From Acidimicrobiia bacterium (GTDB lineage: Bacteria > Actinomycetota > Acidimicrobiia > IMCC26256 > PALSA-555): a stretch of 64,000 bases of DNA. Positions 42,306 to 56,396 of the stretch are shown here, piece by piece. The notes under the pieces are model-generated. The model made no database searches, was not told the DNA's origin, and worked only from the letters and a program-made list of their open reading frames with translations. The stretch is taken from positions 1 to 64,000 of the forward strand of contig DASZJD010000054.1 in assembly GCA_035948415.1 (NCBI GenBank), written 5' to 3'. The translations under genes and the position numbers were made by a program. Within the stretch, counting starts at the first letter, position 1, and the number at the start of each line of letters is the position of its first letter.

Positions 42306-42327
42306 GTTCACCCGCGCTTTGCCTGTT
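42306..42327 (+). promoter_or_regulatory. Candidate PHO box upstream of pstS
   Basis: GTTCACCCGCG (42306-42316) matches the 11-nt actinobacterial PHO-box unit (GTTCAYYYRCG-like), and CTTTGCCTGTT (42317-42327) follows as a weaker tandem unit. A TAGCCT at 42366-42371 could be the pstS -10 box. The response regulator encoded at 47425 is the expected binding protein. It lies between phoU and pstS and may serve both. Confidence 0.5.
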
Positions 42328-42415: not shown

Positions 42416-43480
42416 ATGATTCTCCGCACGCGCCTCGCGCGCCGGGTCGCGGTGTCGACGCTGGCCCTCGGGCTCGTCGCCGCTGGCTCCGCCGGCGTCG
42501 CGAGCGCGACCACGGGCCAGAAGGGACAGCCGAAGGTGGCGGCGGCCACGCTGAACGGGTCGGGCTCGACCCTGACCGCGGCGTTCCTCCAGGCCACCAT
42601 CGCGGCGTTCAAGACCGCCCAGCCGAACGTCACCGTCAACTACGCCGGTGGCGGCTCCGGGAAGGGGCGCACCGACTTCGCGAACGGGGTGGTGCAGTTC
42701 GCGGGAACGGACGCGCCGTACGCGGCCGGTGCCGCGCCGAGCAAGGCCTTCGACTACATCCCGACCATCGTCTCGCCGGTCACCGTCTCGTACAACCTGT
42801 CCGGCGTGAAGAGCCTGCAGCTGTCGGCGGACACCATCGCGGGGCTCTTCAACGGCACGATCACCACGTGGAACGACCCCGCGGTCAAGGCTGACAACCC
42901 GAAGGCCAACCTGCCGAGCACGAAGGTCACGATTGCCCGCCGCTCGGACAGCTCGGGCACGACCCAGAACTTCACGACCTACCTCCAGGGGGCGTCCACG
43001 AAGTGGACCCTCGGCGCGGCGGCGACGGTCAACTGGCCGGCGAGCTCGGTGGGCGGCAACGGCAGCACCGCCGTGGCCACGAACGTCAAGAGCACCGACG
43101 GCGCGGTCGGCTACGTGGACTTCTCCGACGCCAAGGCCGCCGGGCTGAAGTTCGCGTCGGTCAAGAACGCGTCGGGCCAGTTCATCGCCCCGAGCGTGAA
43201 GAGCGCCACCCAGGCCCTCGTGGGCGTGAAGCAGAACCCGGACGAGACCTACAACCCGCTGAACACCAAGAACAAGGCGGGCTACGCGATCACGTCACCG
43301 ACGTACCTGCTCGTCGCCTCGACGCAGTCCGACGCCGCGGTCGGCAACGCGCTGAAGGCGTTCTTGACCTACATCGAGGACAACTCGACCAAGCTGGCCC
43401 CGGCCGTCGACTACGCGCCGATCCCCCCGGCGTTCCAGAAGGCCGCCCTGTCAGCGATCGCCAAGATCCAGGTCGGCTAA
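42416..43480 (+). CDS. pstS: Phosphate ABC transporter substrate-binding protein
   Basis: A 354-residue exported phosphate-binding protein. It starts with a signal peptide (TRLARRVAVSTLALGLVAAG, then ASA). The mature part opens with LNGSGSTLTAAFLQATIAAF and contains the phosphate-contact region RSDSSGTTQNFTTYL and the GVVQFAGTDAPY block. No lipobox is evident. The ATG at 42416 has GAGGAGG upstream. A long hairpin separates it from pstC and may set its higher expression. Confidence 0.94.
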   Translation: MILRTRLARRVAVSTLALGLVAAGSAGVASATTGQKGQPKVAAATLNGSGSTLTAAFLQATIAAFKTAQPNVTVNYAGGGSGKGRTDFANGVVQFAGTDAPYAAGAAPSKAFDYIPTIVSPVTVSYNLSGVKSLQLSADTIAGLFNGTITTWNDPAVKADNPKANLPSTKVTIARRSDSSGTTQNFTTYLQGASTKWTLGAAATVNWPASSVGGNGSTAVATNVKSTDGAVGYVDFSDAKAAGLKFASVKNASGQFIAPSVKSATQALVGVKQNPDETYNPLNTKNKAGYAITSPTYLLVASTQSDAAVGNALKAFLTYIEDNSTKLAPAVDYAPIPPAFQKAALSAIAKIQVG

Positions 43481-43486
43481 GCGCTC

Positions 43487-43533
43487 GGCACGGGAGGGGC
43501 GGGAGACTTTCCCCCGTCCGTCCCTCCCGTGCC
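43487..43533 (+). terminator. Hairpin between pstS and pstC
   Basis: GGCACGGGAGGG (43487-43498) and CCCTCCCGTGCC (43522-43533) form a perfect 12-bp stem with a 23-nt loop, just 6 bp after the pstS stop. No T-run follows, so it is not a classic intrinsic terminator. It probably attenuates transcription or protects the pstS message so that the binding protein exceeds the permease. Confidence 0.65.
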
Positions 43534-43550
43534 AGCATCCCCCAAGAGCT

Positions 43551-44537
43551 ATGGCTACCGAGACGCTCGACCCCCCGAAACCCCAGAGCCTGTCGGCGGG
43601 CCCGGTGCCGCCCGGTCGGGGCCCCGACCGCGTCTTTCGAGTGCTCACGCTCGCCGCCGGCCTGCTCGTACTGGTGATCCTGCTCCTGATCATCGTGACC
43701 ACGAGCGGGCAGGCCCAGTCGTGGTTCAGCGCCGAGGGCCTCGGCACCATCTTCAGCTCGAACTGGGACCCGGCCCACCACCACTTCGGCTCCCTCGGGC
43801 TGCTCGTCGGCACCATCGAGGTGTCGCTGATCGCGCTGCTCATCTCGGTGCCGGTGAGCGTCGGGCTCGCCCTCTTCGTGACCGAGGTGTCGCCGCGACG
43901 GCTGCGCCGGCCGATCGTGTACACGGTCGACCTGCTGGCCGCGGTCCCCTCGGTCGTGTTCGGGCTCTGGGCCCTCCAGATCCTCCTGAAGCCCCTCTCG
44001 GACGCCTACTCGTCCGTCGCCGACGGCACCGTCGGCTTCCCGCTCCTCGGCGCCCTGTTCTCGCACCCGAGCGCCTCGGGGCAGGCGATCATGACCGCCG
44101 GGATCGTCGTCGGGATCATGATCACCCCGATCGTCACCGCGATCACCCGCGAGGTGTTCGCCACCTGCCCCGCGTCCCAGAAGGAGGCCGCGCTGGCGCT
44201 CGGCGCCACCCGCTGGGAGATGATCCGCGGCGCGGTGTTCCCGCACGGCCGCAGCGGGGTCCTGTCGGCGGTCATGATCGGGTTCGGGCGCGCCGTCGGC
44301 GAGACCATCGCCGTCGCGCTCGTCGTCGGCTCGTCCCCGCAGCTCACCGCCCACATCTTCGGGCCCGGCGACACCATGGCGAGCATCATCGCCAACGAGT
44401 TCGGCGACGCCACCGGCACCTGGCGCTCGGCCCTCATCGGGCTCGGCCTGGCCCTGCTCGCGCTGACGGTCGTGATCGGGATCGTGGCGCGGACCGTGTT
44501 CGGGCGCTCCGAGCGCCGGCTCGGGGTGGTCCTGTGA
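43551..44537 (+). CDS. pstC: Phosphate ABC transporter permease PstC
   Basis: A 328-residue permease with six helices. The family motif EAALALGATRWEMIRGAVFP is the ABC permease coupling loop, and IGFGRAVGETIAVALVVG follows. It pairs with PstA. Its stop overlaps the pstA start (GTGA). Confidence 0.94.
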   Translation: MATETLDPPKPQSLSAGPVPPGRGPDRVFRVLTLAAGLLVLVILLLIIVTTSGQAQSWFSAEGLGTIFSSNWDPAHHHFGSLGLLVGTIEVSLIALLISVPVSVGLALFVTEVSPRRLRRPIVYTVDLLAAVPSVVFGLWALQILLKPLSDAYSSVADGTVGFPLLGALFSHPSASGQAIMTAGIVVGIMITPIVTAITREVFATCPASQKEAALALGATRWEMIRGAVFPHGRSGVLSAVMIGFGRAVGETIAVALVVGSSPQLTAHIFGPGDTMASIIANEFGDATGTWRSALIGLGLALLALTVVIGIVARTVFGRSERRLGVVL

Positions 44538-45442
44538 GCACGGCCACCGCCACCATCTCGGCCCCGCTCCTGCGGTCGCGCCCGGCGTCTCGGGCTCGCA
44601 AGGTGCGCAACCACGTCGCCACCGCGCTCATCGTGGGCTCGGTGCTCGTGACCCTCGTGCCGCTGATCTTCGTGGTGGCCTTCGTGGTGAACCGGGGCGG
44701 CGGGGTGTTCGGGTGGGCCTTCCTCACCCGCGACATCCCGATCCTGGACCGTGAGATCGGCGGCGGCATGAAGCCGGCGATCATCGGGACGCTCGTGATC
44801 ACCGGCGGCGCCACCGCGATGGCCGTGCCCCTCGGCATCCTCGGGGCGATCTACCTGAACGAGTACGGCCAGAGGGGCCGGCTCGCCCGCCTGATCCGGT
44901 TCCTGGCCGAGATCATGACCGGCGTCCCGTCGATCGTGATGGGCCTGTTCATCTACATCGTCTGGGTCCTGCACTTCAAGAACCAGACCGCGTTCGCCGG
45001 GTCGCTCGCGCTCGGCTGCCTCATGCTGCCGATCGTCATCCGCACGTCGGAGGAGATGCTGCGCCTGGTTCCCCACGAGCTGCGCGAGGGCAGCTACGCG
45101 CTCGGCAGCCGCAAGGTGCGCACGATCCGCACCGTGGTCCTGCCCCACGCCGCCCCCGGGATCGTGAGCGGGGCGCTCCTGGCGGTGGCCCGGGCCGCCG
45201 GCGAGACCGCCCCGCTGCTGTTCACGATCGGGATCGTGACCTCGGCGAACACCAGCCTGTTCCACGGTCCGACCACGGCGCTGTCGTTCCAGATCTTCCA
45301 CAACGCCACCTCGCCGTTCGTCGGCGCCCAGGACCGGGCCTACGGCGCCGCGCTCACGCTGATCCTGCTGGTCTTCGTCTTCACCGCGCTGGCGCGCGTC
45401 GTGACGACGATCTACGCCCGCCGCACCACGGCCGGAGCCTGA
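44534..45442 (+). CDS. pstA: Phosphate ABC transporter permease PstA
   Basis: A 302-residue permease. Helices include [20 protein letters not shown] and [19 protein letters not shown]; the coupling loop is [20 protein letters not shown] and [17 protein letters not shown] is the PstA block. The GTG at 44534 overlaps the pstC stop by 4 bp. It forms the channel with PstC. Confidence 0.94.
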
Positions 45443-45458
45443 CGTGGAGGCCGCCCAC

Positions 45459-46346
45459 ATGCCCGAGCCCCGATTTGCCGCCGCTACAGTCGACCCCGTG
45501 CTCACCCGGCCGCCGGCCGAGCGACGCGAGGTCCCGGGCGAGTCCGCCCGGCCGGAGCCGGACCAGCGCCAGATCGTCTTCGAGCTCGCCGACGTCGAGG
45601 TTCGCTACCAGGGCGTGACCGCGGTGCAAGGTGTTGACCTGCGGGTCGCTGCCCGCGAGATCACCGCCTTCATCGGCCCGTCCGGCTGTGGCAAGACCAC
45701 CGTCCTGCGGACCCTGAACCGGATGCACGACATCACCCCGGGCGCCGAGGTGCGGGGCCGGATCACGTACCACGAAGAGGACCTCTACGGGCCCCGGGTG
45801 GACGTCGCCGAGGTCCGGCGGCGGATCGGCATGGTGTTCCAGAAGCCGAACCCGTTCCCGAAGTCGATCCACGACAACGTCGCCTACGGGCCCCGGATCA
45901 ACGGCCGGAAGCGCGGCGAGATGGCCGACCTCGTCGAGCACGCGCTCCGCCGCGCCGCCCTCTGGGACGAGGTGAAGGACAAGCTGCGGCAGAACGCCCT
46001 CGGCCTCTCCGGGGGCCAGCAGCAGCGGCTGTGCATCGCCCGGGCGCTGGCGGTCGAGCCTGACGTCGTTCTCATGGACGAGCCGTGCTCGGCCCTCGAC
46101 CCCATCGCCACCGCCCGCATCGAGGACCTCATGCAGGAGCTGAAGACCGACTTCACGCTCGTGATCGTCACCCACAACATGCAGCAGGCGGCACGGGCCT
46201 CGGACCGCACCGCCTTCTTCACCTCAGACGTCGACGACGCCGGACGGCGCGTCGGGCGCCTCGTCGAGTTCGACACCACCGAGCGGCTCTTCACCCAGCC
46301 CACCGACCCTCGGACGGAGGGCTACATCACCGGGCGGTTCGGTTGA
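45459..46346 (+). CDS. pstB: Phosphate ABC transporter ATP-binding protein
   Basis: A 295-residue ABC ATPase. Walker A is GPSGCGKTT, the signature [15 protein letters not shown], Walker [14 protein letters not shown] and the switch His in [10 protein letters not shown]. The ATG at 45459 has GGAGG 10 nt upstream; a GTG at 45444 is possible. The stop overlaps the TTG start of phoR (TTGA). Confidence 0.95.
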
Positions 46347-47425
46347 GAGCACCGTCGGCCCCGGCGAGCGGCCCGGGGGACAGCGACGCAGTCCCCGACA
46401 ACGACGCCTGCCGGCGGCTCGTCCACGCCCTCGACAGCGTGCCCGACGGGGTCATCGTCGTCGACGCCGCCGGCCGCGAGGAGTTCCGCAACACCGCCGC
46501 GCTGCGGTTCCGGGACGCCCGCCACGCCGAGGCGCTGGCCGAGCACGCCGTGGCGCAGCTGGTGGAGCGGGCCCGCCAGGGCGAGGTCGCCGAGCGGGAG
46601 CTGCCGCTGTTCGGCCCGCCGCGCGAGGTGCTGGTGCTGCGCGCCCTGCCGCTCGGCGACGACGGCGACGCGCTCGGCGCGGTGGCGCTGATCCACGACG
46701 TCACCGACGCCCGCCGGGTCGAGAGCGTCCGGCGCGACTTCGTCGCCAACGTGAGCCACGAGCTGAAGACCCCGATCGGCGCCCTCGGGCTGCTCGCCGA
46801 GACCATCGCCTCGGCCGACGACGTCGAGGTCGTCCGACGCCTCGCCGAGCAGCTCGTCCGCGAGTCGGACCGGCTCGGCCGCATCGTCGACGACCTCCTC
46901 GACCTGAGCCTCATCGAGGCCCAGGCCGCCCCGACCCGCGAGCCGACCCCGGTGCACGTGCTGGTGGAGGAGGCGGTGGAGCGGCTCGGCGCGCTGGCCC
47001 TCGCCCGGGGGATCCCGCTCCGCACCGAGCCCGCCGACGAGGACCTGATGGTGCGGTGCGACCCGACCCAGCTCGTCAGCGCGATCACGAACCTCCTCGA
47101 CAACGCGGTGAAGTACTCCGACCACGGCCAGGAGGTGGAGGTCGGCGCGGTGCCGGAGGGCGACCAGGTCGTGGTGTGCGTGCGCGACCACGGCATCGGG
47201 ATCCCGTCCCGCGACCTCGAGCGGGTGTTCGAACGCTTCTACCGGGTGGACAAGGCCCGCAGCCGGGCCACCGGCGGCACCGGGCTCGGGCTCTCGATCG
47301 TGCGCCACGTCGCCGAGGCGCACGGCGGCGAGGTGACCGTCGAGTCGACGGAGGGGGAGGGCTCGACCTTCCGCCTCGCCATCCCGCTCGCCGACGCCGA
47401 GCGCCACGTGGCGGAGGCGTCCTGA
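46343..47425 (+). CDS. phoR: Sensor histidine kinase PhoR/SenX3-type, no membrane segment
   Basis: A 360-residue kinase starting with a TTG in a 4-bp overlap with pstB. An N-terminal PAS domain ([20 protein letters not shown] through [13 protein letters not shown]) is followed by HisKA with the phosphorylated His in [17 protein letters not shown] and a HATPase domain ([50 protein letters not shown]). SenX3 and PhoR normally have N-terminal membrane helices; none is present here. The protein is probably soluble and recruited by PhoU. Next to phoB as its partner. Confidence 0.9.
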
Positions 47426-48123
47426 TGGCCGAGCCCCCCACGATCCTCGTCGTCGACGACGAGCAGTCGTACCGCGACGCGCTCTCGGTGGCGCTCCAGC
47501 GGGAGGGCTTCACGGTCGAGACCGCCGCCGACGGCGCCGAGGCCATCGCCCGCTTCGACGCCGCGCGACCGGCGCTGATCCTCCTCGACGTGATGCTGCC
47601 GCACATGTCGGGCGTGGACGTGTGCCGCGAGCTGCGGACCCGATCGCAGGTGCCGATCATCATGGTGACGGCGCGGAACGCCGAGATCGACGCCGTCGTC
47701 GGCCTCGAGGTCGGCGCCGACGACTACGTCACGAAGCCGTTCCGGCTGCGGGAGCTGGTCGCCCGCGTGCGGGCGGCGCTGCGGCGGGCGCCGAACGTCG
47801 ACGGCCCGGCCCCGGCGGTCGAGGTGATCGAGATCGGGGACGTGAAGCTCGACGCCGGCCGTCACGAGGTGTTCGTGCACGACTCGCTCGTGCCGCTGCC
47901 GCTCAAGGAGTTCGAGCTGCTCGAGCTGCTGCTCCTGAACGCCGGGCGGGTCCTCACCCGCGACGTGCTCATCGACCGCATCTGGGGCCCGAACTACTAC
48001 GGCGACACGAAGACCCTCGACGTGCACATCAAGCGGCTGCGGGCCAAGCTCGAGACCGACCCCGCCAACCCGACCCGGATCGTGACCGTGCGCGGCGTCG
48101 GGTACCGGTACGAGAAGAACTGA
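47425..48123 (+). CDS. phoB: Response regulator PhoB/RegX3-type
   Basis: A 232-residue OmpR/PhoB-family regulator. The receiver domain has acidic residues in VVDDEQ, the phosphorylated Asp in LILLDVMLPHMSG and the switch Lys in DDYVTKPFRLREL. The winged helix follows (LPLKEFELLELLLLNAGRVL, TKTLDVHIKRLRAKLE, VRGVGYRYE). Its ATG shares a base with the phoR stop. It should bind PHO boxes such as the one at 42306. Confidence 0.94.
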   Translation: MAEPPTILVVDDEQSYRDALSVALQREGFTVETAADGAEAIARFDAARPALILLDVMLPHMSGVDVCRELRTRSQVPIIMVTARNAEIDAVVGLEVGADDYVTKPFRLRELVARVRAALRRAPNVDGPAPAVEVIEIGDVKLDAGRHEVFVHDSLVPLPLKEFELLELLLLNAGRVLTRDVLIDRIWGPNYYGDTKTLDVHIKRLRAKLETDPANPTRIVTVRGVGYRYEKN

Positions 48124-48132
48124 CCGCACCGG

Positions 48133-48684
48133 TCACGAGGCGCGGGGGGCACCACCCGGCCCGGCGTCCCGCGCCCCGGGTGACGACGCCGGCGCCCGGC
48201 GCAGCTCGTCCAGCCATCCGAGGACGGCGCGCTCGTAGGCGACGCCGAAGGCGAGCACCGCGGCGGTGTGCTCGTCGGGCGCCACGATGCGCTCGTACAG
48301 CGCCAGGCGCTGCTCGTGATCGGCGCGGCGGGCCTCGAGGAAGCGGTCGCGGGTGGCCGGGTCCACGTGCCTCCCGAACCAGAGGGTGACGAGCAGCGGG
48401 AACCGGATCTGCTCCGGGCCCGGGTCCTTCGTCACCCAGGCCTGGAAGGCGCGCCGCCCGGCGGCGGTGATCGTGAACGGCCGCCGGTCGCGGACGCCCG
48501 GTGGCCCCGCCTTCACGAGCTTGCGGGCCTCGAGGGCCTGCAGCTCCCGGTAGACGTGGCTCGGCGTGATGTTCCAGAAGCGGCCGAGGCCGCCCTCGAC
48601 GCGCTGCAGGAGGTCCCAGCCCGTCATCGGGCCGTCGGCGAGGAACCCGAGGAGCGAGCCCTGGGTCGGGTTCAGTGCCGCCAC
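48133..48684 (-). CDS. PadR family transcriptional regulator
   Basis: A 183-residue PadR regulator: a winged helix at the N-terminus (TQGSLLGFLADGPMTGWDLL, FWNITPSHVYRELQALEARK, GVRDRRPFTITAAGRRAFQ) followed by a helical dimer arm. The start is a GTG at 48684 with AGAAGGGA upstream. It converges with phoB and is divergent from the PhyH-like dioxygenase gene, which it may control. PadR proteins often respond to small aromatic or drug molecules. Confidence 0.87.
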   Translation of the reverse strand: MAALNPTQGSLLGFLADGPMTGWDLLQRVEGGLGRFWNITPSHVYRELQALEARKLVKAGPPGVRDRRPFTITAAGRRAFQAWVTKDPGPEQIRFPLLVTLWFGRHVDPATRDRFLEARRADHEQRLALYERIVAPDEHTAAVLAFGVAYERAVLGWLDELRRAPASSPGARDAGPGGAPRAS

Positions 48685-48743
48685 CTTGACATTCCCTTCT
48701 GGAGGGTTAGGGTCGAGCCCGGTAGTCCCTTAGGGAGGATGCG

Positions 48744-49493
48744 ATGGTAGACGCGGCCCTGGCCTCGCTCGAGCGGGACGGCTACGCCCGCATCCCGGAC
48801 GCGGTGCCGCTCGATCTCGTCGCCGCGGCCCGGGCCGACCTGACGACGATCCTCGAGCGCACGCCCACCGGCCGCGACGACTTCGAGGGTCGGCGCACCC
48901 AGCGTGTCTACGCCCTCTTCGCCAAGACGCGCGCCCTCGACGCCTTCGCGCTCCACCCGGCGGTCCTCGAGCTCCTCGACCGCGTCTTGGGTTGCTACCA
49001 GCTGAGCGCGCCGGCGGCGATCGCCATCGGCCCGGGCGAGACCGCGCAGCCCCTCCACCCCGACGACGCCATTTACCCGGTCAACCGGCCCCACGCCGAG
49101 CTGGTCGTGAACGTGATGTGGCCCCTCGAGGACTTCACCGAGGCGAACGGCGCCACGCGGATCGTCCCCGGCAGCCACCGGTGGGTCGACGAGCGGCCCG
49201 GGCCCGACACCCCGACGGTCGCGATCGACCTGCCGGCCGGTGCCGCGCTCGTCTACCTCGGCAGCGTGTGGCACGGTGGCGGCGCCAACCACACCGACCG
49301 GGCTCGGCTCGGGGTGGTGCTGCACTACGCGGCGGCGTGGCTCCGCCCGGTCGAGAGCCACCTCCTCGCCGTCCCTCCCGACGCGGCCGCGCCGCTGCCG
49401 CCGCGCCTGCAGGAGCTCCTCGGCTACAACATCTGCCCGCCGTTCATCGGCTACGTCGACGGGCGGCACCCGCGCGCGCTGCTCGGCCGGTAG
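48744..49493 (+). CDS. Phytanoyl-CoA dioxygenase (PhyH) family protein
   Basis: A 249-residue Fe(II)/2-oxoglutarate oxygenase. The iron ligands are His and Asp in QPLHPDDAIYP and the distal His in GSVWHGGGANH; the 2OG-binding Arg is in DRARLGVVLHY. The middle shows the PhyH pattern ATRIVPGSHRW. Such enzymes hydroxylate small molecules or acyl chains in secondary metabolism. The ATG at 48744 has AGGGAGG upstream, within a TCCCT-T-AGGGA dyad (48726-48736). It is divergent from PadR. Confidence 0.87.
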   Translation: MVDAALASLERDGYARIPDAVPLDLVAAARADLTTILERTPTGRDDFEGRRTQRVYALFAKTRALDAFALHPAVLELLDRVLGCYQLSAPAAIAIGPGETAQPLHPDDAIYPVNRPHAELVVNVMWPLEDFTEANGATRIVPGSHRWVDERPGPDTPTVAIDLPAGAALVYLGSVWHGGGANHTDRARLGVVLHYAAAWLRPVESHLLAVPPDAAAPLPPRLQELLGYNICPPFIGYVDGRHPRALLGR

Positions 49494-49508: not shown

Positions 49509-50279
49509 TCAGCGCGACGCGGGCGCGCCGGCGCGGGCGTACTCGATGGCGGCGGCGGCCGCGGTGGCGGGCGCCCCCTCGATCCCCGACAGCTCGGTGG
49601 CCGCCGCGTACCCGGCTCGCACGAGGCCGACGTCGGTGTCGGGATCGGGCTCGCCCCGGTGGCCGTCGTACACGAGCCGCAACTCGCCCGGCGCGGTCTC
49701 GGCGTGCCACCACTCGGCGAACGGAGCCGGGCGCCCGGCCCGGACCCCGCGCAGCTCCGCGAGCGGGAGGTTCGGCACGTTCAGGCTCAGGATCCGGCCC
49801 TGCAGCGCGGCGGCGGCGGGGACGGCGGCGGCGGCCAGGACCGCGGCGGTGTCCCAGTGCTCGGCGTCGCCCCAGCCGAGGCTGACCGCGACGCCGGGCA
49901 GCCCGAGCACGAGGCCCGTGAGCGCGGCGCCGACGGTCCCGGAGTGCAGGACGAGGTGACCGGTGTTCAGGCCCTGGTTGACGCCCGAGGCCACGAACTC
50001 GGGCCGGGGGCCGAAGGACCCGAGGCCGCCCGCGTACACCGCCGCCGCCGGCGACGTCGCCAGCGCGTGCACGGGCACGCCTGGGAGGTCCGGCCACTCG
50101 ATGCTGATCCGCCCGATCGGGCCCGACCGGTGCAGCCGGCCGATCCCGGCGCCGGCGCCGCTGTGCTCGCCGTCGGGGGCGACGACGACGACCTCGTAGC
50201 CGGCCTGCACCAGCGCCCGGGCCAGGGCCCGCAACCCCGGTGCCTCGACGCCGTCGTCGTTCGTAACGAGGATCCGCAC
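49509..50279 (-). CDS. surE: 5'/3'-nucleotidase SurE
   Basis: SurE is a metal-dependent phosphatase acting on nucleoside monophosphates. The N-terminal signature MRILVTNDDGVEAPGLRALA carries the metal Asp pair, followed by VVAPDGEHSGAGAGIG (substrate loop) and VASGVNQGLNTGHLVLHSGT with the Asn ligand. The length of 256 residues is usual. The GTG at 50279 follows TACCGT by 6 nt, a leaderless start. It converges with PhyH. Confidence 0.9.
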   Translation of the reverse strand: MRILVTNDDGVEAPGLRALARALVQAGYEVVVVAPDGEHSGAGAGIGRLHRSGPIGRISIEWPDLPGVPVHALATSPAAAVYAGGLGSFGPRPEFVASGVNQGLNTGHLVLHSGTVGAALTGLVLGLPGVAVSLGWGDAEHWDTAAVLAAAAVPAAAALQGRILSLNVPNLPLAELRGVRAGRPAPFAEWWHAETAPGELRLVYDGHRGEPDPDTDVGLVRAGYAAATELSGIEGAPATAAAAAIEYARAGAPASR

Positions 50280-50385: not shown

Positions 50386-51060
50386 ATGACCGCGATCTCG
50401 CTCGCGGTCCTCGACCTCGCCGGGACGACCGTGCAGGACGACGGCGCCGTCGAGGCGGCGTTCGTCGACGCGCTCGGGGCGGTCGACGCCGGGCCGGGCA
50501 CCCCCGGGTACCCCGATCGGCTCGCGTACCTGCGGCGCACGATGGGGCGCTCGAAGATCGAGGTGTTCCGGGCCGTCCTCGGCGACGAGGCCGGGGCGCA
50601 GCGCGCCAACGTCGCCTTCGAGGCCGCCTACGGCGACCGCGTCGCGTCGGGCGCGGTCCAGCCGATCCCGGGGGCCGCGGCGGCACTGGCCACGCTGCGA
50701 CAGGCCGGCGTGCGGGTGTGCCTCACCACCGGCTTCTCGCCCGCGACCCTCGACGCCCTGCTCGGGGCGCTCGGCTGGCACGACGCGGTGGACCTAGCGC
50801 TGGCGCCCGGGCCGGGGATCCGGGGGCGGCCGCATCCCGACCTGGTGCTGCACGCGGTGCTGCGCCTCGAGATCGACGACGTGCGCGGCGTGGCGGTGGC
50901 CGGCGACACCGCCAACGACCTCCTCGCCGGCACCCGAGCCGGCGCCTCCGTGGTGGCCGGGGTGCTCACGGGCGCGCACGGGCGCGCCGAGCTGGCGGCG
51001 GCGCCGCACACCCACCTGCTCGACTCGGTCGCTGACTTCCCGGCCCTCTGCCTCGGCTGA
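50386..51060 (+). CDS. Phosphonatase-like HAD hydrolase (PhnX-like)
   Basis: A 224-residue HAD hydrolase. Motif I is AVLDLAGTTVQD (Asp nucleophile, AGT as in phosphonoacetaldehyde hydrolase), motif II the Thr in VCLTTGFSPATL, and motif IV VAVAGDTANDLLAG. The cap segment RTMGRSKIEVFRA aligns with MGLLKIDHVRA of PhnX, so the Schiff-base lysine appears kept. It belongs with the phosphonatase-like group that cleaves C-P bonds or acts as a phosphatase. It faces an HD protein of the PhnZ type across a 9-bp gap, a hint of phosphonate use. Confidence 0.8.
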   Translation: MTAISLAVLDLAGTTVQDDGAVEAAFVDALGAVDAGPGTPGYPDRLAYLRRTMGRSKIEVFRAVLGDEAGAQRANVAFEAAYGDRVASGAVQPIPGAAAALATLRQAGVRVCLTTGFSPATLDALLGALGWHDAVDLALAPGPGIRGRPHPDLVLHAVLRLEIDDVRGVAVAGDTANDLLAGTRAGASVVAGVLTGAHGRAELAAAPHTHLLDSVADFPALCLG

Positions 51061-51068
51061 CGGCCGGG

Positions 51069-51623
51069 TCAGGCCGCGGGCCGGGCCAGACGCTCGACCG
51101 CGGCCCGCCAGTAGCCGAGGCCGGGGACCCGGGCGCCGGGCACCTTGGCGGCGTCGTCGGCGCGCCGGAGCGTGAGACAGGCCTCGAGGTCCGGGAACGC
51201 GAGCAGCGCCACGCGCTCCTCGGGGTCGAGGAGCCCGCCCTGGGCGCGGAGCGTGTCGAGGCTGCGGGGGCTGAGCCGGTGGCGGTAGCGGGGGTCGGTG
51301 GTCACGAGGTAGCGCTTGGCCTCGTCGTGGCGGGCCACGAGGGCGGCGACCCGGCTGCCGAGCAGGCCGGCGACGGCGTCGGCCCCGACCGCGGCGTGGG
51401 ACTCCGGGCGGCCCGGGGTCAGGACGGTGCCGAGGTCGTGGACGAGCCCGGCGACCTGGAGCTCCGCGTCGGCGGGGGCGACCCGCTCCAGGATGGCGGC
51501 GCACTGGAGGGCGTGGGCAAGCAGGTCGACCGGCTCGTCGTCGTCGACGTCGCGACCCGCCTCGAGCGCGGCGAGGATCTCGTCGCTGGTGCGCAGCCGC
51601 ACGGTCAGCGACAACCGAGTCAC
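51069..51623 (-). CDS. HD-domain oxygenase of PhnZ type
   Basis: A 184-residue HD-domain protein. Metal-ligand candidates are the His in LLAHALQCAAIL, His-Asp in VAGLVHDLGTV, His in ESHAAVGADA, His in ARHDEAKRYLV and Asp in LRRADDAAKVPG. The block DEAKRYLVTTDPRYRHRLSP and the QGG/AAKVPG pattern match the phosphonate-operon HD proteins, whose known member PhnZ uses a di-iron site and oxygen to split 2-amino-1-hydroxyethylphosphonate. The start is set at GTG 51623; upstream codons look non-homologous. The conserved N-terminal Tyr of PhnZ is not obvious (GRDVDDDEPVD). Converges with the PhnX-like gene. Confidence 0.72.
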   Translation of the reverse strand: MTRLSLTVRLRTSDEILAALEAGRDVDDDEPVDLLAHALQCAAILERVAPADAELQVAGLVHDLGTVLTPGRPESHAAVGADAVAGLLGSRVAALVARHDEAKRYLVTTDPRYRHRLSPRSLDTLRAQGGLLDPEERVALLAFPDLEACLTLRRADDAAKVPGARVPGLGYWRAAVERLARPAA

Positions 51624-51737
51624 GCCGACGATTCTCCGCGCCCAGGCCGCGACGCCAAGGCGGAGGGGCGATCGTTCACCTGCCGCCACGGAGGCGTCAC
51701 CCCCTCGCCCGGCGCCGTTCACCCGGACCGGGCGACC

Positions 51738-52205
51738 TCAGCCGGGGGGCGGCAGGTAGGCCGAGGCGGTCAGGTCGCCGGCGTCGCTCTCGAGGACCCA
51801 GGTCGAGCCCTTCTCGAGCCGGGCCTCGCCGTTCAGTCCCCCGACCTGGCGGAAGTGATCGAGGAGCTCCTCGATCACGTCGCCGTGGGTGCACAGCACC
51901 GTGGGCTCGTCGGTGACCTTCTCGACCAGTCGGAGGGCCTCGGTGAGCGGCGTCCCCTCGGCGAGCGACGGCGACGGCTCGATCGGGAGGCCGAGGCGGC
52001 GGGCGAGCGGCTCGACCGTCTGGCCGCAGCGCACGAACGGGCTCGAGACGATCCGGGTGACGCCGCAGCCGGCGAGCAGCCCCGCGATCCCCTCGGCCTG
52101 GCGGTGACCCACCTTGCTGAGGGGCCGCTGCTCGTCGGGACCGTCCCAGCGGCTGCGGCTGCCGGCCTTGGCGTGGCGGACGAGGAAGACCGGTGTCGTG
52201 CTCAC
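51738..52205 (-). CDS. SixA-type histidine phosphatase
   Basis: A 155-residue phosphohistidine/histidine phosphatase. The catalytic His is in FLVRHAKAGS and the second in VLCTHGDVIEE; RPLSKVGHRQAEGIAGLL and IVSSPFVRCGQTVEPL are family marks. The GTG at 52205 overlaps the NUDIX stop by 4 bp. In mycobacteria these two domains form one protein (MutT1); here they are separate but coupled. Confidence 0.87.
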   Translation of the reverse strand: MSTTPVFLVRHAKAGSRSRWDGPDEQRPLSKVGHRQAEGIAGLLAGCGVTRIVSSPFVRCGQTVEPLARRLGLPIEPSPSLAEGTPLTEALRLVEKVTDEPTVLCTHGDVIEELLDHFRQVGGLNGEARLEKGSTWVLESDAGDLTASAYLPPPG

Positions 52206-52636
52206 GGTTGGTGGCGGCCCCGGGGCAGGCGGTCGAGGAGGTCTCGGTCGTGTGGGTAAGTGAGGAGTCTGGCAGCCTCGTCCGGCGCGAGCCAACGCAG
52301 CTCGTCCACCTCGGCATTGGGGGCGAAACCCTTCTCCTCGTCCGGGGCCTCGGGCTCCATGAGCCAGTACCGAACCCACTTCGGCCGGCCCCGCCGGTCC
52401 CGGTAGCGGGTCTCGCCGAGGGGGGCGACGATCCGGCACCGCAGCCCGGTCTCCTCCTCCACCTCGCGCAGGGCCCCGGCCTCGGCGCTCTCGCCGTCGG
52501 CGAGCTTGCCCTTCGGGAGGCTCCAGTCGTCGTAGGCGGGTCGATGGATGACGACGACCCGCTCGCCCCGGCGCACGACGCCGCCGGCGGCCTGCACGGT
52601 GGGGGTGGTCGGGTCCGGGTCCCCGGTCCGGCTCAC
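52202..52636 (-). CDS. NUDIX hydrolase (MutT1-like)
   Basis: A 144-residue NUDIX hydrolase with the full G-x5-E-x7-REUxEExGU box (GKLADGESAEAG, then ALREVEEETGL). The N-terminal VQAAGGVVRRGERVVVIHRP and DDWSLPKGKL fit MutT1/diadenosine-polyphosphate hydrolases. The GTG at 52636 overlaps the CYTH-CHAD stop by 4 bp. Together with the following phosphatase it should act like mycobacterial MutT1 on oxidised nucleotides or dinucleoside polyphosphates. Confidence 0.88.
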   Translation of the reverse strand: MSRTGDPDPTTPTVQAAGGVVRRGERVVVIHRPAYDDWSLPKGKLADGESAEAGALREVEEETGLRCRIVAPLGETRYRDRRGRPKWVRYWLMEPEAPDEEKGFAPNAEVDELRWLAPDEAARLLTYPHDRDLLDRLPRGRHQP

Positions 52637-54132
52637 AGCCAGTGGCGGAGCTTCTTGCGGCTGGCGTCCCGCCACGTCGACGGCCAGGCTCGACGGCCGC
52701 GGCTGGCGGCCTCCTGCTCCTGCATGGCGAGCTCGCCGGCGGCGAAGGCGACGCCCGCGTCGGCCGTCCCGGCGGCGGCGTCACGCAGCCATTGGGCGGC
52801 GACGACGGCGTCCTGGTGCTCGCCGAGCACGTCCTGCACCTCGGTCAGCGCGTGCGCCAGCGCCCGCGCCGGCTTGCCGAAGGCGGGCTCGACCGCCTCG
52901 GCCGCGTACCGTGCCCGCTTGGCCCGCTTGCGGACGGCGTGCAGCTCCTCGTCGGCGGGCTCGTCGGCGAGTCGCTCCACGGCCGCGGCCTGGTGGTCCC
53001 ACGCCCGGCGGACCAGCCCACGCAGGACGTCCTCGTCCGGTTCGCCGTCGTGGCGCGGGAGGAGGCGCGGCTGACGGGCGGCGTCGACGAGCCGGTCGAG
53101 GAGCACCGCGTAGCGGTGGCTGCGCAACGCGCCGAGCAGCGCCGTCCGGGCCCGCTCGCGCTCGGCGCGGAGGGCCTCGAGCAGCTGACCGGCCGCGGCG
53201 CGGTCGGGGCCCGGCAGGTGCGCGATCCGTTCCTCGAGCCGGTCGAGGAGCACGTCGGCGTCGCGGACGGCGCCGAGGGCGCCGCCGAGCCAGCCGAGCT
53301 CGTCGCGGAGCGCCTCGGCCCACGTCTCGTCGACGAGGGGCAGGAAGGTGCGCAGGTGGGAGCGCAGCCGGCGGGTCGCGACCCGGGCCTGGTGGACGTC
53401 CTCGGGGTCCTCGCCCCGGCGCACGCCCGGGTCGTGGGCGACGAGCCGGGCCACGGGCGTGGCCAGCGCCGCCCGCACTACGTCGCCGACGGTGCGCGCC
53501 GGGCCGCTCGCGGGGGCGATGTCGGGCGGGCCGGCGGCTCGGGGCCCGAGGGCCCGCACGATCTTCGGGGTCGGGTCGGGCGGACCGGCGCCAGCGGCGC
53601 GCAGGCGGGCCACGATCGCCGCCGCCTGGGCCTCGGGGGCGTCGTCGGCCAGCTCGAACTCGAGCTCGCGGAAGGCGCGCACCGGGCCGTCGCCGCCGAG
53701 GACGGCCACGTCGTCGTCGACGACCTCCCCGATCGGCGCCCCCGACGTCGTGCGCAGCCGGACGGCGCGCCGCGTGGTCCGCAGCCGGGCCACCGGGCCC
53801 ACCGAGGCGCTGCGCGTCAGCGCTCGCACCAGCTCGAGGGCCTCGGCCGGGGGGCTGCCGGCCTCCCCGGGGACGGCGTAGGTCGTCCGGTCGAGGCGGC
53901 CGTCGCCGCCCGCGTCGGCGCGCGGCAGCTTCACCGCCCAGCCTTCGTCGTTGCGGTGCCGCAAGGACGCCCGGGCTCGGGTCAGGCGCAGGTCGTCGGT
54001 GTCGTAGTACACCGCGAGGAGATAGAGGGTGCCGGCCGGTTCGGCGACGACGCCCGCCAGCGGGTCCGACAGCGGTGGGAGGGCGCTCGCGGGCGGGGCG
54101 GCGAGCTTGATCTCGCGTTCGACGACGGTCAC
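52633..54132 (-). CDS. CYTH-CHAD domain protein
   Basis: A 499-residue protein. The N-terminal CYTH domain begins VEREIKLA (ExExK) and continues with YYDTDDLRLTRARASLRHR and the KLPR block; these domains bind or hydrolyse triphosphates. From about residue 220 a CHAD helical domain follows (VHQARVATRRLRSHLRTFLP, VRKRAKRARYAAEAVEP), rich in His and Arg that bind polyphosphate. The GTG at 54132 overlaps the ppk stop by 4 bp. Its place after ppk supports a role on polyphosphate granules or triphosphate turnover. Confidence 0.9.
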   Translation of the reverse strand: MTVVEREIKLAAPPASALPPLSDPLAGVVAEPAGTLYLLAVYYDTDDLRLTRARASLRHRNDEGWAVKLPRADAGGDGRLDRTTYAVPGEAGSPPAEALELVRALTRSASVGPVARLRTTRRAVRLRTTSGAPIGEVVDDDVAVLGGDGPVRAFRELEFELADDAPEAQAAAIVARLRAAGAGPPDPTPKIVRALGPRAAGPPDIAPASGPARTVGDVVRAALATPVARLVAHDPGVRRGEDPEDVHQARVATRRLRSHLRTFLPLVDETWAEALRDELGWLGGALGAVRDADVLLDRLEERIAHLPGPDRAAAGQLLEALRAERERARTALLGALRSHRYAVLLDRLVDAARQPRLLPRHDGEPDEDVLRGLVRRAWDHQAAAVERLADEPADEELHAVRKRAKRARYAAEAVEPAFGKPARALAHALTEVQDVLGEHQDAVVAAQWLRDAAAGTADAGVAFAAGELAMQEQEAASRGRRAWPSTWRDASRKKLRHWL

Positions 54133-56225
54133 GCCCGGGCCTGCGCCCGCTCCGTGGCGAGGGCGCGGAGCCGGGCCTGCGCGTCGAGACCCACGAGGGT
54201 CTCCACCTTGTGCCACACGCCGTCGGCGGCCAGCTGCCAGGCCAGGACGTCGTCGGCGAGGTTCACGGTCAGGATCTCGTCGAGTCGAGCGCGGAGCGCG
54301 GGCACGTCGACCGGGCAGAGGGCCTCGACCCGGCGGTCGAGGTTGCGGGGCATGAGGTCGGCCGAGCCGATCAGGTACGTGGCCCGGGCCGGGTCGGCGC
54401 CGAAGCGGAAGATCCGCGAGTGCTCGAGGAACCCACCGACGAGCGATCGGACCCGGATGCGCTCCGACCGGCCGGGCACCTGCGGGCGGAGGCAGCAGAT
54501 CCCGCGCACGACGAGGTCGATCTCGGTGCCGGCGCCGGAGGCGGCGTAGAGCTCGTCGATGAGCTCGGGATCCACGAGGCTGTTCATCTTCATGACGATG
54601 CGCCCCCCGGGCCCCTTCGCCGCCTCGGCGCGGATCTGGTCGCGCAGCGCGGGGCGCAGGTCCTCGGGTGCCACCAGCAGTCGCCGGTAGCGCACCGACC
54701 GGCTGTAGCCGGTCAGGTGGTTGAACAGCTCGGCGAGGTCGGCGCCGAGCGCCGGGTCGGCGGACAGCAGCCCGAGGTCCTCGTAGAGGGTCGCCGTCTT
54801 CGGGTTGTAGTTGCCGGTCCCGACGTGGCAGTAGCGGCGAACGCCGTCGTCCTCCTGGCGGACGACGAGGAGGATCTTGGCGTGGGTCTTGAGCCCCACG
54901 AGGCCGTACACGACGTGGACGCCGGCCTCCTCGAGGACGCGTGCCCGCTCGATGTTCGCCTGCTCGTCGAAGCGCGCCTTAAGCTCGACGAGCGCCACGA
55001 CCTGCTTGCCCTGGCGGGCGGCGTCCACGAGCGAGCGCACGATGGAGCTGTCGGGGCCCGCGGTGCGGTAGATGGTCTGCTTGATCGCCAGGACCTTCGG
55101 GTCGCGCGACGCCTGGTCGACGAACGCCTCGACCGAGCTCGCGAACGAGTCGTATGGGTGGTGGACGAGGATGTCGCCGCCGCGCAGCAGTCGGAACAGG
55201 TTGGGGGTCTCGTCGCCCGTTTGGAGGAGCCCGGGCGGGCTCTGGGGGAGCCACGGCTCGTCCTTGAGGTCGGGTCGCTCGAGCCCGCAGATGTCGAAGA
55301 GCCCGCTGAGGTCGAGCGGCCCGTCGATGCTGACGACGGCGGCGGGCGGGATCTCGAGCTCGCGGCACAGCACGTCGAGGACCTCGTCGCTCATCGACGC
55401 GTCGACCTCGAGGCGCACCGTGTGCCCGAACTTCGTGCGCCGGTGCAGCACCGACTCGATCGCCTCGAGCAGGTCCTCGTCCTCGTCGTCGAGCTCGAAG
55501 TCGGCGTCGCGCGTCACGCGGAACGGGACGTGGTCGAGGATCTCCATGCCCGGGAAGAGGCGGCCGAGGTGGGCGGCGATGACCTGCTCGAGGGGGACGA
55601 ATCGCGCCTCGCCCGGCAGGGGCACGAAGCGGGGCAGCGCGGGCGGGACCTTGATCCGCGCGAACCGCTGCTCGCCCGTCTCGGGGTCGCGCACGACCAC
55701 GGCCAGGTTCAGCGACAGGTTGGAGATGTACGGGAAGGGGTGCGCAGGGTCGACCGCCAGCGGCGTGAGCACCGGGTAGACGCGCTCCTCGAAGGTGCGC
55801 TGCAGCTCGAACCGGTCGGCGTCGTCGAGGTCCGGCCAGCCCTCGAAGCGGATCCCGGCCTCCCGGAGGCGGGGGGCGACGTCCTTCGTGAAGGCGGTGG
55901 TGTGACGGTCGACGAGTGCACGCACCTGCTCGCGGATGGCGCGGATGGTCTCGAGCGGGTCGAGGCCGTCGGGGGAGCGAGCGCGCAGCCCGGCCAGCAC
56001 CTGCTCCTGGATGCCGGACACGCGAACCTGGAAGAACTCGTCGAGGTTCGACGAGAAGATGGCGAGGAACTTCGCCCGCTCGAGCAGGGGACGGCCCGGG
56101 TCCTCGGCCAGCGCCAGCACTCGCGCGTTGAAGTCGAGCCAGGACAACTCGCGGTTCAGGAAGCGGTCGCCGTCTCCCTCTTCGCGCGTGGTGGGAGCGG
56201 CCGGCGCACCGGTCGGCACGGCCAT
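54129..56225 (-). CDS. ppk: Polyphosphate kinase 1
   Basis: PPK1 makes polyphosphate from ATP reversibly. Motifs: FLNRELSWLDFNARVLALAE and FSSNLDEFFQVRV at the N-terminus, ILVHHPYDSF near residue 353, the autophosphorylated His in LKTHAKILL near 445 and YCHVGTGNYNPKTA near 466. Length 698 residues is standard. The ATG at 56225 follows TACCAT by 6 nt. It heads a four-gene leftward operon with three 4-bp overlaps: CYTH-CHAD, NUDIX and histidine phosphatase. Confidence 0.96.
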   Translation of the reverse strand: MAVPTGAPAAPTTREEGDGDRFLNRELSWLDFNARVLALAEDPGRPLLERAKFLAIFSSNLDEFFQVRVSGIQEQVLAGLRARSPDGLDPLETIRAIREQVRALVDRHTTAFTKDVAPRLREAGIRFEGWPDLDDADRFELQRTFEERVYPVLTPLAVDPAHPFPYISNLSLNLAVVVRDPETGEQRFARIKVPPALPRFVPLPGEARFVPLEQVIAAHLGRLFPGMEILDHVPFRVTRDADFELDDEDEDLLEAIESVLHRRTKFGHTVRLEVDASMSDEVLDVLCRELEIPPAAVVSIDGPLDLSGLFDICGLERPDLKDEPWLPQSPPGLLQTGDETPNLFRLLRGGDILVHHPYDSFASSVEAFVDQASRDPKVLAIKQTIYRTAGPDSSIVRSLVDAARQGKQVVALVELKARFDEQANIERARVLEEAGVHVVYGLVGLKTHAKILLVVRQEDDGVRRYCHVGTGNYNPKTATLYEDLGLLSADPALGADLAELFNHLTGYSRSVRYRRLLVAPEDLRPALRDQIRAEAAKGPGGRIVMKMNSLVDPELIDELYAASGAGTEIDLVVRGICCLRPQVPGRSERIRVRSLVGGFLEHSRIFRFGADPARATYLIGSADLMPRNLDRRVEALCPVDVPALRARLDEILTVNLADDVLAWQLAADGVWHKVETLVGLDAQARLRALATERAQARA

Positions 56226-56396
56226 GGCCTGATGGTAGCGGCGCCGGCTCCGACGCTCCCCGGGGCCTCGGCGCGCCGCGGGATCGCGTGACGTGTCGGT
56301 GACCGTCAGGTGAAGGTTCGACGCCGGCACGGCCGGCGCCGGGCGCTCGTCCACGCCGGGTGACCGTGGGGCCGCGCCGCTACTGTCGATGTACCG

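Follow-up and report, generated by a model that had tools for sequence, protein, structure and literature searches.

Among the described systems, the closest counterparts of the locus analyzed here are the phosphonatase operons of Achromobacter, which combine PhnX with HpnW (TIGR03364) and PhnHD (TIGR03276) and contain no PhnY* (PMC11203657). PbfD enzymes, found with a phosphonatase in PbfD-phosphonatase modules, convert AEP or M1AEP to phosphonoacetaldehyde (PMC10590968). In the PhnY*/PhnZ and TmpA/TmpB pathways (PMC10574752, PMC8177086), an HD oxygenase is partnered with a 2OG hydroxylase. Stand-alone phnZ genes are present in 15 of 1186 phnWX and 24 of 75 phnWAY clusters; PhnW-PhnX deal poorly with R-HAEP, and in some cases a phnZ gene lies beside clusters of this kind (PMC8154272).

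We analyzed a stretch of 64,000 nucleotides of an Acidimicrobiia bacterium (hereafter, the window; its genome is denoted G000), in which a HAD hydrolase gene faces a gene for an HD-domain protein (hereafter, HAD and HD). The locus includes the following features:
42416..48123, forward strand: pstS-pstC-pstA-pstB-phoR-phoB
48744-49493: PhyH-family 2OG oxygenase, 0.9 kb from the pair
49509..50279, reverse strand: surE-like nucleotidase, divergent from the HAD gene across a 106-bp intergenic region
50386..51060, forward strand: PhnX-like (TIGR03351) HAD hydrolase, 224 aa, assigned by family and residues
51069..51614, reverse strand: PhnZ/TmpB-fold, oxygenase-like HD-domain protein; the TTG start at 51614 was chosen by alignment with a same-genus relative, and a GTG at 51623 is possible
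51674..51680, forward strand: GTTCACC PHO half-site upstream of HD, without a full 11-bp dimer
51717..51723, forward strand: second GTTCACC PHO half-site upstream of HD
51738..52205, reverse strand: SixA-like histidine phosphatase
52202..52636, reverse strand: Nudix (MutT-like) hydrolase
52633..54132, reverse strand: CYTH/CHAD-type protein, family assigned from its own sequence and its position beside ppk
54129..56220, reverse strand (start approximate): putative polyphosphate kinase-like gene (ppk), the first of a run of genes in one orientation, of which HD is the last
56298..56315, reverse strand: best PHO-box match of the window (CTTCACCTGACGGTCACC), between ppk and a divergent MFS gene

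The HAD and HD genes are real and, as the first-pass annotation had it, arranged tail to tail, beside surE and near the Pho genes. The gap between the stops is 8 bp (51061-51068). The two genes probably code for enzymes that cleave C-P bonds in parallel and are what remains of an aminophosphonate module under Pho control. This module shares with the Achromobacter operons a phosphonatase, a FAD oxidase replacing PhnW, and a PhnZ-like HD protein, without PhnY*, but the window hydrolase belongs to TIGR03351 rather than to PhnX proper, neither the fifth His nor the lid Tyr is present in HD, the window has lost the oxidase, and the genes are located between phoB and ppk. Given that the Achromobacter module has been published, the general combination is already known, and the window pair is a variant of it. 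As in PbfD-phosphonatase modules (TIGR03364 plus phosphonatase; PMC10590968), the oxidase gene lies directly upstream of HAD in four relatives from the same order, but here the set also includes an HD oxygenase, and the genus of the window has no such oxidase. The HD fold and the diiron ligand and pocket positions are those of the PhnY*/PhnZ and TmpA/TmpB pathways, whereas the absence of a 2OG hydroxylase partner, Y24, and H62, and the placement in a separate clade, set the window HD apart. A PhnZ homolog that accompanies a hydrolytic phosphonate cluster, presumably to act on R-HAEP, is reminiscent of the phnWX and phnWAY clusters with phnZ; in contrast to these, the hydrolase and oxidase come from other families, the setting is actinobacterial and tied to Pho and ppk, and in one genome, HD is fused to the hydrolase.

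The resemblance of HD to phosphonate-operon oxygenases, noted at first pass, is borne out by family, sequence, and fold. The best-matching families are TIGR03276, followed by PhnZ1 and TmpB, although the TIGR03276 score of 113.1 bits is below the curated cut-off of 214.6, and PhnZ and TmpB were the only matches in a sequence search of the PDB. The AlphaFold model (pLDDT 95) adopts the PhnZ/TmpB fold, and all 10 Foldseek matches with E<=0.001 are to PhnZ or TmpB (TM 0.85-0.89), the next match having E 0.016. The six diiron ligand positions (H...HD...H...H...D) are identical by alignment (H34, H58, D59, H80, H104, and D161), so that the model combines the PhnZ fold with a full set of ligand positions, as judged from aligned identities, rather than lacking the di-iron ligands. 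Further PhnZ positions retained in HD are E27, K108, S126, T129, Q133, and R158, the last five of which are, by alignment, putative pocket positions. However, two signature residues are missing: the lid Tyr of the YxxE motif (PhnZ Y24, replaced with D) and PhnZ His62 (replaced with T); Glu27 stays. Y24 and E27 are located in the mobile YxxE loop (for the roles of YxxE and the ligands, see PMC8177086), and a fifth His is treated as a hallmark of the TIGR03276 clade (PMC11203657); by alignment, this His is taken to be PhnZ H62.

In a phylogenetic tree of 109 HD proteins, two sides were apparent, one consisting of PhnZ/TmpB, mostly encoded beside PhnY*-like genes, and the other one (support 92) including the window protein along with those of Streptomyces, Nocardia, and Kribbella. 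The second side lacks the lid Tyr; the loss of H62 is confined to the ppk-locus proteins, which form a subclade, and to close relatives of this subclade, apart from isolated cases on other branches. Both the separate clade and the residues rule against HD being a PhnY*-partnered PhnZ. Some second-side HDs (L083, L084, L086, L170, L181, L192, and L200) are paired with a PhnY*-like PhyH protein, which supports oxygenase chemistry for this branch as a whole. The Tyr-less branch (L150-L194) is common in Streptomyces, Nocardia, and Kribbella, in otherwise ordinary neighborhoods, with PHO-box-like sites in several of the upstream regions. In G028 and G044, the Pho-locus HD (L067:10377-10952, L068:9288-9863) no longer has the residues corresponding by alignment to PhnZ K108, S126, T129, and Q133, and both genomes also carry a second, intact PhnZ adjoining a PhnY* homolog.

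A survey of 296 genomes of the class identified HD relatives in 79 and strong TIGR03351 matches in 15. Six further genomes from the order (G060, G064, G142, G158, G188, and G203) have the tail-to-tail pair, contrary to the possibility that neither gene is conserved beside the other, within a wider layout consisting of pst-phoR-phoB, then surE and HAD, then HD-sixA-mutT-CHAD-ppk. Much of the within-order conservation could reflect vertical inheritance of one locus. In at least 14 genomes, whether HAD is present or not, HD is the last gene of the ppk cluster, and the sixA stop abuts or overlaps the HD start in most relatives. HD without HAD is more common in the order than HD with HAD, and the firmest partners of the HD gene in the order are sixA-mutT-CHAD-ppk. 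Across the phylum, 18 sampled genomes encode both HAD and HD, and in 13 of them, the two are located within 10 kb of each other (chance probability about 0.006 each), a count in which related genomes are included separately and which corresponds to about six independent lineages. In G364, a FADox-HAD-phnDCE-dehydrogenase array is divergent from HD and a PhnF-like regulator; two Streptomyces genomes encode HD beside an AEP-type transporter, HAD, and the oxidase; and in G141 and G268, HD, an AEP-type transporter, and HAD occur together. In G492, a single 404-aa protein (L251:5383-6597, reverse strand; contig G492:C5) is a fusion of HAD and HD, with the TIGR03351 HAD part retaining DLAGTT and the cap Lys, and the HD part retaining the YxxE Tyr and H62; this gene lies behind PhnE and a TIGR03364 oxidase and is followed by a zinc dehydrogenase.

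Fusions of a different kind were detected in L222:3456-5771 (forward strand), L220, L227:3984-6284 (forward strand), and L218:3792-5909 (reverse strand), where a type I phosphodiesterase, a TmpB/PhnZ-like HD domain, and a TmpA-like TauD dioxygenase are encoded in one frame. These three-domain proteins are approximately 700-770 aa long (L220 runs off the contig) and might take a phosphonate ester all the way to phosphate within a single protein.

The tight linkage with the ppk cluster, where HD lies 0-15 bp from sixA in most relatives and is retained where HAD is absent, raises the alternative that HD no longer takes part in phosphonate chemistry and instead functions in the metabolism of polyphosphate or nucleotides within the ppk-CHAD-mutT-sixA cluster, for example, as a phosphohydrolase, its closeness to HAD being a by-product of the shared Pho island. 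The loss of His62 in the subclade found at the ppk locus and in close relatives of it, that of the lid Tyr in the whole branch, and the co-existence in G028 and G044 of a degenerate Pho-locus HD with a separate PhnY*-PhnZ pair are compatible with such a shift. We nevertheless regard it as unlikely: K108, S126, T129, Q133, and R158 are retained in all ppk-locus HDs except those of G028 and G044, the structure search sharply splits HD from phosphohydrolases, and HD and HAD recur jointly outside the ppk locus, once as a fusion.

Among all protein families, TIGR03351 ('PhnX-like') is the best match for HAD, covering its full length with 218.1 bits (E 1.3e-64), 0.8 bit under the curated cut-off of 218.9; assignment to true PhnX (TIGR01422) is not warranted, with 63.9 bits vs the equivalog cut-off of 220. 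The phosphonatase Lys and the AGT nucleophile motif, recognized at first pass, are indeed retained (D10-x-A12-G13-T14 and cap Lys57), as are all the other phosphonatase residues that we checked, namely, M53-G54, T115, R148, D174, and D178. The HADs of the conserved Pho locus form one clade (support 85/89), which implies that the pair has been inherited as a unit and lost repeatedly.

A TIGR03364 (PbfD-type) FAD oxidase is encoded directly upstream of HAD in G064, G142, G158, and G203 (the oxidase in L056 scores 331 bits) but is absent from G000, G060, and G188 at E<=1e-20, so that the usual association of TIGR03351 with a TIGR03364 oxidoreductase does not hold in the window's genome. PHO boxes were sought with a matrix trained only on the pstS/phoU/ppk/MFS promoters of relatives (GTTCACC-N4-GTTCACC, which is also the Streptomyces consensus; PMC4415409). 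The best site of the window, at 56298, is in the ppk promoter that heads the HD cluster; upstream of HD itself, there are only the two exact half-sites (51674 and 51717) and no dimer (score 4.1), and another half-site lies between pstS and phoU, at 42306. In G064, G142, and G203, the FADox/surE promoter carries a PHO box (scores 13.6-20.5, rank 1-3 in the locus), as do the HAD/surE promoter of G188 (score 17.0) and HAD in G127, and the FADox/HD promoter of G364 contains the rank-1 PHO box of its 19-kb locus. The surE-HAD type of region thus carries a PHO box in several relatives, whereas none was detected in the surE-HAD intergenic region, with the HAD promoter, of the window (best score -4.2). 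In the genus of the window, the oxidase has been lost along with its PHO box.

The absence of both from G000 and G060 could signify that HAD is a relic, its substrate source having gone with the FAD oxidase and the gene being on its way out. The HAD of G188 at the conserved locus (L060:1211-1957, reverse strand) has lost the phosphonatase Ala (DTGGTT), with the cap Lys replaced with R, changes that suggest decay or a new role after the loss of the oxidase. HAD is also absent in g2 and g3 of the same family. Against these indications, among which we count the missing A12 and Lys57 of the G188 protein and its long branch, stands the state of the gene in G000 and G060, where the catalytic positions are all intact and HAD is 77% identical, compared with 74% for surE, 73% for sixA, 71% for HD, 69% for CHAD, and 65% for mutT. 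HAD being the most conserved of these, there is no sign of its decay, and we consider it improbable that the window HAD is a relic as the one in G188 may be. A more generic assignment, an ordinary phosphoglycolate-type phosphatase, is very unlikely: the structure search also places generic HAD phosphatases high in its ranking, but the Ala at Asp+2 and the cap Lys are phosphonatase marks, and TIGR01449 scores 50.7 bits vs 218.1 for TIGR03351.

The earlier remark that PhnY and a transaminase are missing applies to the entire genome: there is no match to the PhnY* model (NF052437, E<=1e-10) and no PhnW above the cut-off. The PhnW search of G000 yielded only two class V aminotransferases, both below the cut-off. 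The better one, L241:5363-6388 (forward strand; contig G000:C68), scores 197.6 bits against TIGR03301 ('AEP aminotransferase'; cut-off 360.8) and is located among genes resembling those for polysaccharide synthesis; it could be a distant source of phosphonoacetaldehyde or something unrelated. Searches of G000 further detected no PhnJ of the C-P lyase, no convincing PhnD or AEP-binding proteins, no PEP mutase match indicative of phosphonate biosynthesis, and no dedicated gene for aminophosphonate uptake or oxidation.

Between phoB and surE, the window (48133-49493) carries a divergent PadR regulator and the PhyH-family 2OG dioxygenase; in G060, of the same genus, phoB is directly beside surE, without these two genes. 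The PhyH protein was considered as the missing PhnY and rejected, as it belongs to a different subfamily, has no PhnY* model match, and its linkage is not conserved. That HAD and HD catalyze consecutive steps on a single phosphonate, with this protein, a member of the Pfam family of PhnY* encoded 0.9 kb away, as the hydroxylase, is, even considering the HAD-HD fusion in G492, hardly credible: the best PDB relatives of PhyH are SptF, TlxJ, and AndA, its homologs are on other contigs rather than beside HD, and the PhnX-type and PhnZ-type reactions both end in phosphate release.

For the same reason, the 'small, different phosphonate route' suggested by the first-pass annotation stands only in part. 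Both proteins are of the phosphonate type by family, residues, fold, and context, but a single route is not supported, because PhnX-type and PhnZ-type enzymes each release phosphate from different substrates and would constitute parallel ends, not consecutive steps. In the fuller form of the parallel module that we favor, found in relatives, the PbfD-type FAD oxidase (TIGR03364) would deaminate 2-aminoethylphosphonate or its N-methyl form to phosphonoacetaldehyde, the probable natural substrate of HAD, which would split it, via the Schiff-base Lys57 and the nucleophile Asp10, into acetaldehyde and phosphate. In parallel, HD would act as another C-P-cleaving enzyme, with a mixed-valent diiron site as in PhnZ and TmpB, and its expected substrate is a pre-hydroxylated phosphonate, such as (R)-1-hydroxy-2-aminoethylphosphonate; we read it as a parallel arm for hydroxylated phosphonates because R-HAEP is a poor substrate for PhnW-PhnX and phnZ occurs beside such clusters. 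In G000, which lacks the oxidase, the conserved hydrolase would have to draw the aldehyde from elsewhere, and the HD gene is tied to the PHO-boxed ppk-CHAD-mutT-sixA cluster. It is from the families, residues, fold, synteny, losses, and PHO-box pattern, all of them computed, that we infer the reactions, the substrates, and the oxygenase activity of HD despite the absent lid Tyr and His62.

A bolder proposal, which we put forward as doubtful, is that the ppk/Pho-locus HDs, with no lid Tyr and with His62 replaced with Thr or Ser, form a new, hydroxylase-independent class of diiron C-P oxygenases that operates next to a TIGR03351 hydrolase. In Acidimicrobiia-like bacteria, the Pho-controlled island that stores phosphate as polyphosphate would then also free it from aminophosphonates. 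Within this proposal, and just as tentatively, the HAD-HD fusion may illustrate that both activities are kept together. Counts of 'phnZ' in metagenomes may take in proteins that lack the hallmark residues and call for caution. The findings connect the utilization of phosphonates under phosphate control with the uncharacterized TIGR03351 family and with a broad Tyr-less PhnZ-like branch that spans Streptomyces, Nocardia, Kribbella, and Acidimicrobiia-like genomes, and the natural HAD-HD fusion together with the set of gene losses makes the substrate predictions testable.
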